NCBI RefSeq assembly: GCF_000327485.1
Contig: NC_019943.1
Location: 124,001 to 188,000 of the forward strand
Direction of reading: 5' to 3'
Length of the DNA: 64,000 bases
Source of the DNA: Methanoregula formicica SMSP
GTDB lineage: Archaea; Halobacteriota; Methanomicrobia; Methanomicrobiales; Methanospirillaceae
Below, piece after piece: positions 50,300 through 55,255 of the stretch. The notes beneath the pieces were generated by a model that worked only from the letters and a program-made list of their open reading frames with translations, was not told the origin of the DNA and made no database searches. The position numbers and the translations under genes are program-made. Position 1 is the stretch's first letter; every line of letters starts with the position of its first letter.

Positions 50300-50845
50300 T
50301 CAGTAATAGTAGCTGATCATGTCCTGCTTTGCCTCTTTCTTTTTCCGGTCAAGGAACGCAAAGACATTCTCGTGGGGGACCCCCTCGATGAGCATATCCA
50401 CGGCCGCCCGGGCGGTCTTGAGCTGCTCGGGGTACCCGATCAGGGCCACGGTCTTGCCGAAGACCGAGATCTCCACGTCGGTCATGTCCTCGATCTGTTC
50501 GCGGGCGCGGCCATCCTTCCCGATAATCCGTCCTCTCAGCCGGTCGAGCTGGCGGGGGTTGTCTGCCATGCCGGCAAGGTCGATTACTTCGAGGAGGAGG
50601 TCCTCATCCTCAATCATCTCGAATGCCCGTTCGGGCGAGAAGCCGCGGTTGATGGCATTGACGATCTCAACAGCCCTGAGGAGCGAGACGGTGTCCTCCT
50701 CGATCCCTTCGACCTTGACAAGCCCCTCCTTGCTGTCGATGGTGATGGTGGTGTGAGTCTTTGCCTCCAGCTCCTTTTTCGTGGCGCCGCCCTTTCCGAT
50801 CAGCACGCCAACCCTGTTTCCGGTGATTTTTATCTCCTGCATCAT
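50300..50845 (-). CDS. KH-domain RNA-binding protein (Pno1/Dim2-like)
   Basis: The 181-residue protein has two KH domains with the loops VLIGKGGATKKELE and IIGKDGRAREQIE. It is the archaeal counterpart of Pno1 (Dim2), which works with Rio kinase and Dim1 in late maturation of the small ribosomal subunit. It ends with the unusual ISYYY. The start ATG 50845 follows GGGAGAGATACGC; the next codon is also ATG. It lies 54 bases downstream of rio1. Confidence 0.88.
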   Translation of the reverse strand: MMQEIKITGNRVGVLIGKGGATKKELEAKTHTTITIDSKEGLVKVEGIEEDTVSLLRAVEIVNAINRGFSPERAFEMIEDEDLLLEVIDLAGMADNPRQLDRLRGRIIGKDGRAREQIEDMTDVEISVFGKTVALIGYPEQLKTARAAVDMLIEGVPHENVFAFLDRKKKEAKQDMISYYY

Positions 50846-50899
50846 AGCGTATCTCTCCCTTGTACGGTCTGGTGGTTCATAGGGCAATCCGGGCCGGCA

Positions 50900-51724
50900 T
50901 CACGGCTCGGCAACATTCAACCCGGTCACGGCATTGAAGATCTCGACCTCGTCCTGGGTCTCGCAGCGGTTCTTAAAAAACCGGTTGATGTTTTTGATGT
51001 CCCTCATCAGGAACGGGAGGGCACGGGGGTGATCCCGGGTGACCGACTGGCCCATGTCTATGAGATATGGTTGGTCTCCGTACAATATATTGAACTCGCT
51101 CAGGTCCGCATGGACCAGCTCAGCCTTGTTGTACAGGATATCAATATCCCTGATAATCCGGGCATAGGCATCCGCGGGGTCCGGCAGGTCCGCGTTCCGG
51201 ATCTGGGGCCAGGGTGTCTCACCATCGCCCATGAATGACATGATGAGGATGTTCCGGTCCCAGACGAATGGTTCCGGCACGGCAACTCCCGCCTCCCGTG
51301 CCCGGGCAAGATTGGAGAACTCCTTCCGTGTCCAGGCAAAGATCAGCTCCTTCTTGGCCTTCTTGACGTGGGAAAACCTCCTGTCCCCGACAATGTACGA
51401 ACTCATGGTCGTAAAATTCGCCGTGCGGATCCGGTAGATCTTGATGGCGATAGGAACCCCGTCACGTTCACCATAGAATACGTTTGCTTCCTTGCCGGTG
51501 CTGATCGATCCCCCGAGCACCGAGAGCCATTTCTTGTGGACGAGTTTGTACAAGGAAAGGAGAGTGATCTCATCGAAGACATCATCCCGGACTTTGAGAT
51601 CATTGGCATCCTTGATACGGACGCCCATCTCTTCGAGCTTCTGGTCGAACCGCTCCAGTCTTTTATCGATGTTGGTTTCCCGTTTCACGCGGTGCCACCG
51701 GTATTCGTTGATCCTGCAGTTCAC
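50900..51724 (-). CDS. RIO-type serine protein kinase (Rio1-like)
   Basis: This 274-residue atypical kinase acts in small-subunit maturation. Motifs are the P-loop-like SISTGKEANVFYG, the lysine in IAIKIYRI, the catalytic loop VHADLSEFNILY, and the metal loop LIDMGQSV. The start is GTG at 51724, which overlaps the tyrS stop (GTGA); a second GTG lies at 51688. The neighbour order tyrS-rio1-KH places it in a translation/ribosome-assembly operon. Confidence 0.92.
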   Translation of the reverse strand: MNCRINEYRWHRVKRETNIDKRLERFDQKLEEMGVRIKDANDLKVRDDVFDEITLLSLYKLVHKKWLSVLGGSISTGKEANVFYGERDGVPIAIKIYRIRTANFTTMSSYIVGDRRFSHVKKAKKELIFAWTRKEFSNLARAREAGVAVPEPFVWDRNILIMSFMGDGETPWPQIRNADLPDPADAYARIIRDIDILYNKAELVHADLSEFNILYGDQPYLIDMGQSVTRDHPRALPFLMRDIKNINRFFKNRCETQDEVEIFNAVTGLNVAEP

Positions 51725-52662
51725 TGGATGTAGTCACGGACGGGTGCAAGGATCTCGACAAGGGATTCCCCGCAGGCCTTCTTGAGGTCAAGCGGGTGGA
51801 TCTCTCCTTTCCCATAGGCTGCTTCAAGGTCGGCATAGCTGCCGAATGAGCGGTCCCCGCCGAACTTCTCCGGCCGCTTGATAGTGATCTCCGGGAGCCG
51901 GGGGAAGACGTGGTGCTGGAAGATCTGGAGGATCGGGTTCTCCGCGATCTCCGGAGGACAGAACGCTTTCTGGCATTTCTTCCGGATCTCGTCTTCGGTA
52001 TCAGCAACAGAGATGTAGTTCCCCTGCGACGAAGACATCTTTTTGCCGTCCAGCCCGTTCAGGATGGGCGTATGGATGCAGACAGGCGCCTTGTACCCGA
52101 AGTTGATGAGGTGCTCCCGGGCAAGCATGTGGATCTTCCGCTGGTCGATCCCACCGACAGCAGCATCGGCACCCAGCAGCGCAATGTCGGCAGCCTGCAT
52201 GATGGGGTAGATCATCTGGGAGACCGTCGGTGTATCCATCTGACGGCCGACCTCGTCCATGCTCCGCGTTGCCCGGTTCAGGGTGATCTCCTGCGCGAGC
52301 CGGAGCACCAGCAGCTGGTATTCCCGGTTGAGCTGGAACTCGGATCCAAGGACGTACTTCACGTTCTTAAGGCCCAGCCCCTCGAAACAGCGCCGGTTGT
52401 AATCGGCCAGTTCGCGGACTTTTTCCATCGTCCCCTTCCGGTTCAGGAACGCGTGGAGATCGGCGAGCAGCACGGTGACCTCGAAACCCGCCGCCTGGAG
52501 GTCGACCAGTTTGTTGATCGTGACAAGGTGGCCGAGATGGATCTCCCCGCTCGGCTCGTAACCGGCATAGACACGCTTGACTGGTTTTGTGAGAAGCGCC
52601 CGGAGATCGTCGTCGGTGACGACTTCGACAGTGTTCCGGGTAACACGCTCGTATGCGTCCAT
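51721..52662 (-). CDS. tyrS: Tyrosyl-tRNA synthetase
   Basis: This archaeal-type synthetase has 313 residues, without the bacterial C-terminal RNA-binding domain. The Rossmann fold has YAGYEPSGEIHLGHL as HIGH motif, and the KMSSS loop is in LDGKKMSSSQGNYI. Tyrosine binding is served by the DLHAFL and MIYPIMQAADI segments. The ATG at 52662 lies 25 bases downstream of the gap stop. An extended open frame upstream is a shadow of gap. Confidence 0.95.
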   Translation of the reverse strand: MDAYERVTRNTVEVVTDDDLRALLTKPVKRVYAGYEPSGEIHLGHLVTINKLVDLQAAGFEVTVLLADLHAFLNRKGTMEKVRELADYNRRCFEGLGLKNVKYVLGSEFQLNREYQLLVLRLAQEITLNRATRSMDEVGRQMDTPTVSQMIYPIMQAADIALLGADAAVGGIDQRKIHMLAREHLINFGYKAPVCIHTPILNGLDGKKMSSSQGNYISVADTEDEIRKKCQKAFCPPEIAENPILQIFQHHVFPRLPEITIKRPEKFGGDRSFGSYADLEAAYGKGEIHPLDLKKACGESLVEILAPVRDYIQ

Positions 52663-52687
52663 CAAAAAGAATGGGTTATGAAGGGAG

Positions 52688-53719
52688 TTAATGGTTATTC
52701 TGGATTGTTTTGAAATTGAGTGCCGCGTTCGTGGCTGCAACGGACTTTGCTGCATCTTTCTCGCCGCCTATCATTGCGCGGATTGCATCGACGTTCTCCA
52801 CAACAACATCGGCTTCCTGGTGGATGGCCTGGAAGAAGCAGAGCTCGTTCTTGTTTGCGTAAATGGAGTCTTCGAAGATGCAGTTCTCCCAGAGGTCCGA
52901 ACGCTGCCGGCCGAGGTCCATCGCGAACTCCTTGAGCTCGGCGGTGCTCTTGAGCCCGGCAGTCTTCTTGATGAGACCGAGCCGGGGGTGCTTGTTGATG
53001 AGCTCGATGACCCGCTCTTTGGTAACCGGTTTCTTCGTGGTCATCTGGATCGCGTGCATGTGCATCATGGTTGTCGGGACGATCATCGCCATGGTGGTGA
53101 TGGAGATGTGGGGGAGCACGGAAAGGACATCCGGCCCATGGTGGCTGGGGACGCTGACCGGGTCGAGGACAATCGCATCGATGGGCCCCTTCTTGATCTC
53201 GCCGGGGTCCGATCCACGGCGGACCATGATGGCATGGACATGGTTCACACCATATTCCTTGTCAATTTCATTGATGATCCGGCACAGGCCCGTGGTGTTG
53301 CACGAGACCACCCGGACGAACTGCCTGCCGATGGCGTCCTTGTAGTTGCAGGACGAGTTGAAGGAGAACCCTGCCAGTTCGTGCTCCTCCCCACCCTGCC
53401 AGAGGGCCTTCTTGCCCAGTTTCTCGTACAAGGCCTTGTTCGTTGCACCGATTTTTCCCGGCGTAGCATCCACGATAACATCGGCCGCTTTGCACATGTC
53501 CTCCACGCTGCCGGCAACTTTGAGCCCGGCCTTCTCGAATGCCTCCTTTTTGGAGATGTCTGCAATATAGAGCGGGAACCCGCGCTGCTTTGCCACGAAC
53601 GCCTCTGCATTCGGCCGGGTCTTGGAGACGCCAATCACCTTCATGTCCTTCTGGGCGGCCACCGCATCGGCCACGCGCTTGCCGATGGTCCCGTACCCGT
53701 TTATGGCAACCTTGATCAT
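52688..53719 (-). CDS. gap: Type II (archaeal) glyceraldehyde-3-phosphate dehydrogenase
   Basis: The 343-residue protein has the archaeal NAD(P)-binding start KVAINGYGTIGKRVADAV and the catalytic cysteine in VVSCNTTGLCRII. VRRGSDPGEIKKGPIDAI and PHISITTMAMIVPTTMMHMH are typical of the archaeal class. In autotrophic methanogens it works mainly in gluconeogenesis. The start is ATG 53719. A TATA-like TTTTTATGTC lies upstream near 53860. It heads the operon with tyrS, rio1 and the KH gene. Confidence 0.95.
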   Translation of the reverse strand: MIKVAINGYGTIGKRVADAVAAQKDMKVIGVSKTRPNAEAFVAKQRGFPLYIADISKKEAFEKAGLKVAGSVEDMCKAADVIVDATPGKIGATNKALYEKLGKKALWQGGEEHELAGFSFNSSCNYKDAIGRQFVRVVSCNTTGLCRIINEIDKEYGVNHVHAIMVRRGSDPGEIKKGPIDAIVLDPVSVPSHHGPDVLSVLPHISITTMAMIVPTTMMHMHAIQMTTKKPVTKERVIELINKHPRLGLIKKTAGLKSTAELKEFAMDLGRQRSDLWENCIFEDSIYANKNELCFFQAIHQEADVVVENVDAIRAMIGGEKDAAKSVAATNAALNFKTIQNNH

Positions 53720-53874
53720 ACAATCGTACATTGCGCCGGAAATGAAAAAGCTATGCGAAACGATTGCACGGCCTGACAGGGAACAACGGCTGGTGAGTGT
53801 CCCTGAATAATTTCCCGCTCAAACGGGATGGCTGCATGCCCATGGGTCACGTGGACATAAAAACAGGATGCCCC

Positions 53875-54366
53875 TCAGATGAACAGCGCCTGGTACTTCA
53901 CCACTTCCGTGCTGTCCTTTGCTGAGGCATAGAGTTCCAGCGGCTCCTTGTTGACTTCAAGAAACCGGATGCCCCAGTTCACTTTTGAGAGCAGCTCCTT
54001 TGCCCGGTCTTTCTCCCCCATGATGTAGAGTGCCGCTGCAACCGCCTCGACCGAAGAGAGCTTGCAGGGTTTGCCGAAATTGACAGGATTGGCTGCCATC
54101 AGGAAGGGGAGGGCCCGCCGTATCCTCCACGAACTGATTGCGCCGGTATCGAGAACCTCCCAGGAGCAGTCCAGCACTGTAAGAGATTTTACGAACCGGT
54201 CTGCGGGGGAGAGCGCCCGTTCTGCCGTGGGATCGAGTATGAGGGTATTCCTCGGGACCTGCTGGAGTTTCTGGAAGATTTTGAGAAACCCGGCCCGCTC
54301 CAGTTTCTTGACCGTGCATTTCCGGGGATCGCAGCTGTTGTCCCGGAAGGCATACAGGGGTATCAT
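53875..54366 (-). CDS. tsr3: rRNA aminocarboxypropyltransferase Tsr3
   Basis: The 163-residue protein is Tsr3 (DUF367), which transfers the aminocarboxypropyl group of SAM to a hypermodified uridine of small-subunit rRNA. Conserved parts are DPRKCTVKKLERAG, LILDPTAERALSPAD, LDCSWE and RRALPFLMAANPVNFGKPCKLSSVEA. The ATG at 54366 is divergent from the deoxyribosyltransferase fusion, with only 31 bases between them. It joins Rio1 and the KH protein as a third ribosome-assembly factor in this part of the window. Confidence 0.92.
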   Translation of the reverse strand: MIPLYAFRDNSCDPRKCTVKKLERAGFLKIFQKLQQVPRNTLILDPTAERALSPADRFVKSLTVLDCSWEVLDTGAISSWRIRRALPFLMAANPVNFGKPCKLSSVEAVAAALYIMGEKDRAKELLSKVNWGIRFLEVNKEPLELYASAKDSTEVVKYQALFI

Positions 54367-54397
54367 TGATCATCTGTGCGTGTCAACACTCTAAATA

Positions 54398-55255
54398 ATG
54401 TACGTGCTCTGCAGCCCCTGCATCCTCAACCCGGGCCTCCGTGCCGAAGGGATCACGAAACCCTCGGACATCGAAGCGTTCCGGCGCACGCAGGCCCGGT
54501 GCAAAGAATTCGGGATCCGGATGATCCCGCTGCCCTGCCCGGAGACGCTTTACCTCGGGCCAGCCCGCCAGCCCGGCACATTCCTGGAACGACTGGACAG
54601 CCCGGCATTTTTGCGGCTGCTTGATGATCTCGAAACAGAGGTGAAGGAGATCATCCGGGAAAATGGCCCGCCCCTGTGCATCATCGGCGTTAACTCTTCT
54701 CCCACCTGCGGGGTGACCACCACATATTACGGCAGCAGGGGCGATGAATCCCCGAAACGTGCGGGAAGAGGGGTGTTTCTCTCGCGGTTCCCGGAGATTC
54801 CGGCCATGGATGCAATCACGTTTTCCCGGTACCGGGTGTACCTGGCAGCCCCCCTCTTCTCGGCAGCGGAACGGACGTATAACGCCTACCTCGCCGGTCT
54901 GTTGCGGGAGAACTTCTTCTCCGTTCACCTCCCACAGGATGCCGGCGATGATTCGGCAGGCAGGGAGAAGGATGTGCAGGCCCGGCTCTTTACCACCAAC
55001 CTTTCAGCTCTTGATGCAGCCGACATTGTTGTTGCTGTCATCGATGGAGCTGACGCCGATTCCGGGACCGCATGGGAGATGGGATATGCCTTTGCGAAAG
55101 GAAAGAAGATCGTAGCCCTCAGGACGGACTTCCGGCATGTCGGGGCCTGCGAGCACGTCAACCTCATGCTGGAACAATCGTCCACCGTTGTCTCCATCCC
55201 GGAAGCCCTTCTCGAAACGCTCAGCGCACCTCTCCTGCTCAAAGACGATCGGTGA
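54398..55255 (+). CDS. Fusion of TudS-type desulfidase-like domain and nucleoside 2-deoxyribosyltransferase
   Basis: The 285-residue protein has two domains. Residues 1-115 resemble the TudS-related putative desulfidases (CD3072 type): CSPCILNPGLRAEG, MIPLPCPETLYLGPAR and IIGVNSSPTCGVT carry the cysteines at positions used in TudS to hold a 4Fe-4S cluster. Residues 145-275 are a nucleoside 2-deoxyribosyltransferase: RVYLAAPLFSAAERTYN, ALDAADIVVAVIDGADADSG, TAWEMGYAFAKGKKIVALR and VNLMLEQS. The arrangement suggests processing of thiolated bases or nucleotides followed by base exchange or glycosidic cleavage, but this is inference. It starts at ATG 54398 and stands alone. Confidence 0.85.
   Translation: MYVLCSPCILNPGLRAEGITKPSDIEAFRRTQARCKEFGIRMIPLPCPETLYLGPARQPGTFLERLDSPAFLRLLDDLETEVKEIIRENGPPLCIIGVNSSPTCGVTTTYYGSRGDESPKRAGRGVFLSRFPEIPAMDAITFSRYRVYLAAPLFSAAERTYNAYLAGLLRENFFSVHLPQDAGDDSAGREKDVQARLFTTNLSALDAADIVVAVIDGADADSGTAWEMGYAFAKGKKIVALRTDFRHVGACEHVNLMLEQSSTVVSIPEALLETLSAPLLLKDDR

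Follow-up and report, generated by a model that had tools for sequence, protein, structure and literature searches.

A TudS-related desulfidase-like domain fused to an NDT-like domain in Methanomicrobiales: a candidate clean-up enzyme for sulfur-modified nucleotides

Methanoregula formicica SMSP encodes one protein in which an N-terminal TudS-related [4Fe-4S] desulfidase-like domain is followed by a C-terminal domain of the nucleoside deoxyribosyltransferase (NDT) type. The gene lies at 54398..55255 on the plus strand of the window, which is the whole stretch of 64,000 nucleotides analysed here and comes from a genome assembled as one contig of 2,820,858 bases. As judged from conserved residues, two predicted active sites are nearly complete in the protein, one for desulfuration with a [4Fe-4S] cluster and one for attack on an N-glycosidic bond. 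The reading we favour, held tentatively and at a little under even confidence, is that of a two-function enzyme clearing away sulfur-modified pyrimidine nucleotides, which would first desulfurate a 4-thio-UMP-like substrate and then cleave it. Both domain families are already known and what is new is their pairing in one protein. A literature search for TudS/DUF523 desulfidases paired with deoxyribosyltransferases found no paper describing both, in keeping with the preliminary description of this DNA, which knew of no function for the pairing. The main TudS and RudS papers do not mention deoxyribosyltransferases and name DUF1722 as the usual partner (PMC10611767, PMC11417400).

The single open reading frame proposed earlier was borne out exactly: it begins with ATG, encodes 285 amino acids and includes the stop codon. 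The ATG is invariant among aligned orthologues. The protein is conserved across the Methanomicrobiales at approximately 50–84% identity, with the closest relatives in the named collection coming from Methanoregula (84%), and this order-wide conservation rules out a chance reading frame. Constraint on the N-domain and on the whole protein is similar, with mean column identities of 71% and 70%, respectively. The AlphaFold model of the fused protein (pTM 0.86) has a defined two-domain arrangement and a short, ordered junction, which, as modeled, fits a fixed placement of the domains. Searches against defence families returned 0 matches, the viral contigs searched contained no relatives, and the plasmids searched contained one bacterial NDT only.

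The N-terminal domain comprises residues 1–138 (54398..54811, plus strand). On the single sequence, the PF04463 model (DUF523, TudS; gathering score 34.7 bits) scores 18 bits for the whole protein and 20.8 bits for the N-domain alone, and the NCBIfam model NF045597 (TudS_rel_CD3072; equivalog cut-off 130 bits) scores 57.4 and 59.3 bits. Because these values lie under the curated TudS cut-offs, further proof was required. Across the family, both models match 17 of 17 diverse orthologues, with best values of 5.8e-8 and 4.2e-19, respectively, and almost no other models match. In addition, the N-domain profile aligns with stand-alone archaeal CD3072-type proteins at an hhalign probability of 99.4%. 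A profile search of PDB sequences with the N-domain gave nothing significant, so that comparison at the level of structure was needed. Here, the domain as modeled by AlphaFold (pLDDT 87.6) retrieved TudS crystal structures as its top five Foldseek matches in the PDB (probability 1.00, TM-score 0.54–0.61), and the entry ranked after these was far behind. The TudS-type character, read at the outset from a cysteine pattern, is therefore upheld. Weak frataxin matches of a stand-alone archaeal TudS-like protein look like chance and were discarded. A search of the window genome revealed no other significant DUF523 protein.

Residue conservation was counted over 61 distinct fused proteins. When fused proteins were aligned jointly with canonical archaeal DUF523 domains (16) and CD3072-type proteins (11), the residues of the fused proteins fell in the cluster, catalytic and phosphate columns of TudS. 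TudS_A ligates its cluster through C10, C43 and C104, and E45, S101 and S103 are its proposed catalytic residues; in docking, the phosphate of 4-thio-UMP, the preferred substrate, is contacted by R17 (PMC10611767). The corresponding residues, all on the plus strand, are the predicted cluster ligands Cys8 (54419..54421; Cys10 of TudS_A) and Cys47 (54536..54538; Cys43), the phosphate-column Arg15 (54440..54442; Arg17), the catalytic-column Glu49 (54542..54544; Glu45) and the S101-P-T-C104-G motif (54698..54712), in which Ser101 and Cys104 align with the TudS_A residues of the same number and Thr103 replaces Ser103. Conservation of the N-terminal cysteines had been set beforehand as the test on which the assignment could fail; C8, C47 and C104 are invariant in 61/61 proteins, as are R15, E49, S101, P102 and an additional cysteine of the fused family, C35. 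R57 is changed once among the 61. Position 110 is aromatic (Y, W or F, once H), and in TudS docking models an aromatic residue at this position stacks on the sugar. In one metagenome-assembled genome the TudS domain is decayed (L143, 1477-1881) and has SSARG as its third cysteine motif; this may reflect a pseudogene or a faulty assembly. Separately, 4 of the 16 canonical archaeal DUF523 sequences (L156–L185) align Thr-Ile at the expected Ser-Cys of the third motif in the alignment as computed.

Compared with TudS itself (PDB 6Z92-6Z96), the domain has the same fold, invariant equivalents of the three cluster cysteines, Glu45, Ser101, Pro102 and Arg17, and an aromatic residue at the Tyr110 position. 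It differs in its 19% identity, in the extra Cys35, in having an NDT-like partner, in the replacement of Tyr18 by Ala, and at the Ser103 position, which is T in 47, A in 11, and C, V and S in 1 each of the 61 proteins. The best curated match is the CD3072 family (NF045597), with which the motifs C(I/L)LNP..R..G, LPCPE, SP.CG and GVF are held in common; the stand-alone archaeal proteins of this type, which are putative desulfidases, differ in keeping SPSCG and lacking the aromatic residue at 110. The N-domain belongs to a CD3072-related branch with Thr or Ala in place of one catalytic Ser, and for this reason its thio-substrate is a putative one. The tRNA 4-thiouridine desulfidase RudS offers a further parallel, as a TudS domain is joined there to a partner that determines the substrate; however, this partner is DUF1722 and not an NDT, and the fused protein has no DUF1722 match. 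RudS needs Arg60 and the equivalent Glu, Ser and Cys, and mutation of its Ser113, the equivalent of TudS Ser103, essentially abolishes activity (PMC11417400). The replaced Ser103, the Ala at Tyr18 and the missed TudS cut-offs count against the clean-up reading.

The C-terminal, NDT-like N-ribosyltransferase/N-glycosidase domain spans residues 146–266 (54833..55195, plus strand) and is defined by Pfam, structure and motif matches. Residues 147–253 match PF05014 (Nuc_deoxyrib_tr) with 91.4 bits and an E-value of 5.5e-26, above the gathering score of 28.8 bits, and the C-terminal part contains DGADADSGTAWEMGYA. Both sequence and fold place the domain closest to solved NDT structures (7m5h, 7o62 and the CtNDT entries). 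Tyr148 (54839..54841), present in 62/62 fused proteins, corresponds to Tyr7 of CtNDT and to Phe7 of the ribose-accepting AvNRT; Asp221 (55058..55060) corresponds to CtNDT D82, near the 5'-OH; and Glu227 (55076..55078) is the predicted nucleophile, equivalent to E88. The NLM motif, which in NDTs comes from a second subunit, is N255-L-M257 (55160..55168). Together, Tyr148, D221, E227, N255 and M257 are invariant or nearly so among the 62 proteins, and Tyr148, D221 and E227 do not vary in the set of 61. The exception is the position of CtNDT D62, occupied here by Asn201 (54998..55000; all of these features are on the plus strand), which is N in 42, H in 16, C in 3 and L in 1 of the 62 proteins and never D. 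It is Asp in bacterial relatives and in 3 of 4 reference PDB sequences; the fourth, CtNDT, shows Asn, which merely reflects the use of a D62N mutant chain.

This position bears on how the domain may work. In CtNDT, D62 and the 2'-OH of the ribosyl intermediate are 2.6 A apart, a closeness offered as a reason for poor ribonucleoside use, and the D62N mutant keeps approximately 50% of catalytic efficiency while its hydrolysis is increased (PMC10913048). As D62 hinders ribose in CtNDT and D62N raises hydrolysis, a ribonucleoside/nucleotide N-glycosidase is a likelier identity for the C-domain than a strict deoxyribosyltransferase. Its motifs A.P.F, TD.R and NLM and its nucleophile Glu are shared with CtNDT and with AvNRT of Archaeoglobus veneficus, an archaeal homologue that works on ribonucleosides (PMC7308715); unlike the fused protein, neither of these has a desulfidase domain. 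AvNRT has Phe7 and its relatives here (L186–L188) have Phe at position 7 and retain the Asp, whereas the fused family combines Tyr148 with Asn, His or Cys, from which we infer that it came to ribose tolerance and a lean toward hydrolysis by a route other than that of the AvNRT-like proteins. Tyr148, the letter tied to 2'-deoxy preference, speaks partly against ribose tolerance. The active sites of stand-alone archaeal NDT proteins are of two kinds: Phe7 with Asp (AvNRT-like, L186–L188) and Tyr7 with Asn or Cys (Methanosarcina-like, L104, L106 and L197).

Nucleotide N-glycosidases that hydrolyse the N-glycosidic bond, DNPH1/Rcl and MilB, belong to the same superfamily as the C-domain, and DNPH1 is a sanitiser of the nucleotide pool. 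DNPH1 is, however, a weaker structural match (E ~2e-4 or worse). Reading of the sequence, without coordinates, places the N-terminal AAPLFS loop of the C-domain closer to NDTs than to DNPH1 and did not recognise the 5'-phosphate-binding loop of DNPH1 and MilB. By its features the fused protein would work like TudS and like an NDT-superfamily glycosidase, yet it is filed as neither: not as TudS because Ser103 is replaced and the Pfam score lies under the cut-off, and not as a strict NDT because the Asp of CtNDT D62 is missing. The replaced Ser103 and Asp would suit a reading in which one of the domains is catalytically dead and serves binding or regulation. This is very unlikely, since all other catalytic residues are invariant in 61 proteins and CtNDT D62N still retains about half of its efficiency.

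A true transferase, in which the C-domain would carry (deoxy)ribose from a desulfurated or thiolated nucleoside over to a different base and so salvage by base exchange, agrees with the full NDT Pfam match, the nucleophile Glu, the NLM motif and Tyr148, as NDTs are transferases. It is nevertheless improbable: the Asp is always replaced, D62N raises hydrolysis in CtNDT, and the usual partner in base salvage is missing here and in most of the order. No canonical uracil phosphoribosyltransferase was found in the window genome, and a full-length one occurs in only 8 of the Methanomicrobiales sampled, so that free uracil is not generally recovered in this way and uracil salvage was rejected as the purpose. 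The preliminary description had foreseen salvage or house-cleaning by an enzyme that desulfurates and then cleaves or exchanges the base. Both of its domain assignments are supported, house-cleaning of thio-nucleotides remains the best reading and the mechanism is plausible in outline; salvage and a strict deoxyribosyltransferase have become less likely.

The survey for the fusion was centred on one archaeal phylum, with a pattern scan elsewhere. Matches were found in 214 of the 232 Methanomicrobiales genomes searched and in 133 of the 135 good ones, and the fusion occurs in nearly all of the genomes searched. A few of the 214, all in family f2 (G001, G004, G006 and G010), carry the NDT domain only. 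In a tree of the NDT domain, these NDT-only proteins form one clade (support 100/96) among the fused proteins, where their placement is weakly supported. Tree and distribution would fit a single fusion ahead of the diversification of the order, followed by a single loss of the TudS domain. At the f2 loci (L102, L103, L199 and L200) the TudS domain has been lost and the NDT domain kept, and some of these still lie near the Tsr3 gene. Outside the order, the two domains are separate, unlinked genes far apart in the archaeal genomes examined, with the two genes located at 1305570 and 211252 in G468, at 4411035 and 2444120 in G536 and at 1689824 and 1301443 in G260; many genomes carry just one of the two. 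Linkage of the separate genes was thus discarded as support for the pairing.

That the domains stand apart and only partly co-occur in other archaea counts against the clean-up reading and would suit two independent activities joined for convenience. Here, the TudS-related domain would desulfurate while the NDT-like domain takes another substrate, for example purine ribonucleosides, and only expression and stability would be shared. The NDT domain persists alone in part of f2, and AvNRT moves ribose between purines (PMC7308715). Nevertheless, nearly all of the order has kept the fusion, its junction is short and ordered in the model, and both domains belong to nucleotide metabolism; we regard independent activities as a serious but rather unlikely alternative.

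The fused gene is divergent from that of the Tsr3/DUF367 16S rRNA aminocarboxypropyltransferase (53875..54366, minus strand), a separate gene that lies head-to-head with it at 31 bp. This arrangement, with ~31 bp between start codons, recurs in nearly all fused loci examined and in several families, and the gap next to the Tsr3 gene (within 53875-54397) contains the conserved bases ATCATTGATCAT and TATCAATGTACGTG, which may be a shared promoter or operator. The divergent pair with its conserved gap suggests a shared promoter and housekeeping expression. Genes downstream of the fused gene vary among families. On the minus strand, 50300-54366 contains Tsr3, GAPDH, TyrRS, a RIO1-like kinase and a KH-domain protein (all but Tsr3 named by sequence reading), and the GAPDH-TyrRS-RIO1 order is maintained in Methanoregula loci.

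Tsr3 consumes S-adenosylmethionine and releases methylthioadenosine. The conserved neighbourhood could therefore mean that the NDT-like domain processes this by-product and that the TudS-related domain plays another role connected with sulfur. The chance of this is slight, even smaller than that of a dead domain: D221 and N255, which hold the 5'-OH in NDTs, are invariant and methylthioadenosine has no 5'-OH, TudS chemistry requires a thiocarbonyl, and a promoter may be all that the divergent pair shares.

For the clean-up reading, a source of substrate is at hand. ThiI, of the 4-thiouridine synthetase family that makes 4-thiouridine in tRNA, is encoded in the window genome, and this counts in its favour. 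So do the TudS-like fold and catalytic residues, the NDT fold and active-site residues, the order-wide conservation, the even constraint on N-domain and whole protein, the defined arrangement in the model and the lack of another significant DUF523 protein. ThiI is found alike in fused and TudS-lost lineages, and its presence was rejected as a discriminator. Against the clean-up reading, ThiI and the NDT domain persist in one sub-lineage that lacks TudS, so that the NDT reaction does not require desulfuration.

Mechanistically, C8, C47 and C104 of the N-domain would ligate a [4Fe-4S] cluster whose open iron would take the thio group of a 4-thiouridine-type nucleotide gripped at its phosphate by R15. 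Water activated by E49/S101 would then yield a UMP-like product and sulfide. In the C-domain, working as a dimer or tetramer, E227 would attack C1' to release the base, and the ribosyl-enzyme would be hydrolysed to give base and sugar(-phosphate), with Asn, His or Cys at the NDT Asp position favouring hydrolysis and accepting ribose. The more specific version, a one-chain, two-step sanitiser in which 4-thio-UMP or a related tRNA-derived thio-nucleotide is converted to UMP, handed to the N-glycosidase domain and destroyed, is possible but more doubtful than the clean-up role in general. The thio-substrate, the order of the steps, hydrolysis over transfer and the coupling of the two sites are all inferred. 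Tight fusion would keep the thio-nucleotides of tRNA turnover away from the nucleotide pool.

Very little is known of how cells dispose of the sulfur-modified nucleotides that tRNA turnover leaves; the descriptions of TudS and RudS are recent and come from bacteria. The nearly universal fusion in Methanomicrobiales suggests a second chemical step, carried by a compact and testable enzyme. If true, the two-step sanitiser would be a pathway without description in the literature found, and one fixed throughout nearly an entire methanogen order. In addition, Methanosarcina-like relatives have uncharacterised stand-alone proteins of the CD3072 type and of the archaeal NDT type, and the domain pair serves as a "Rosetta stone" that points to their role.
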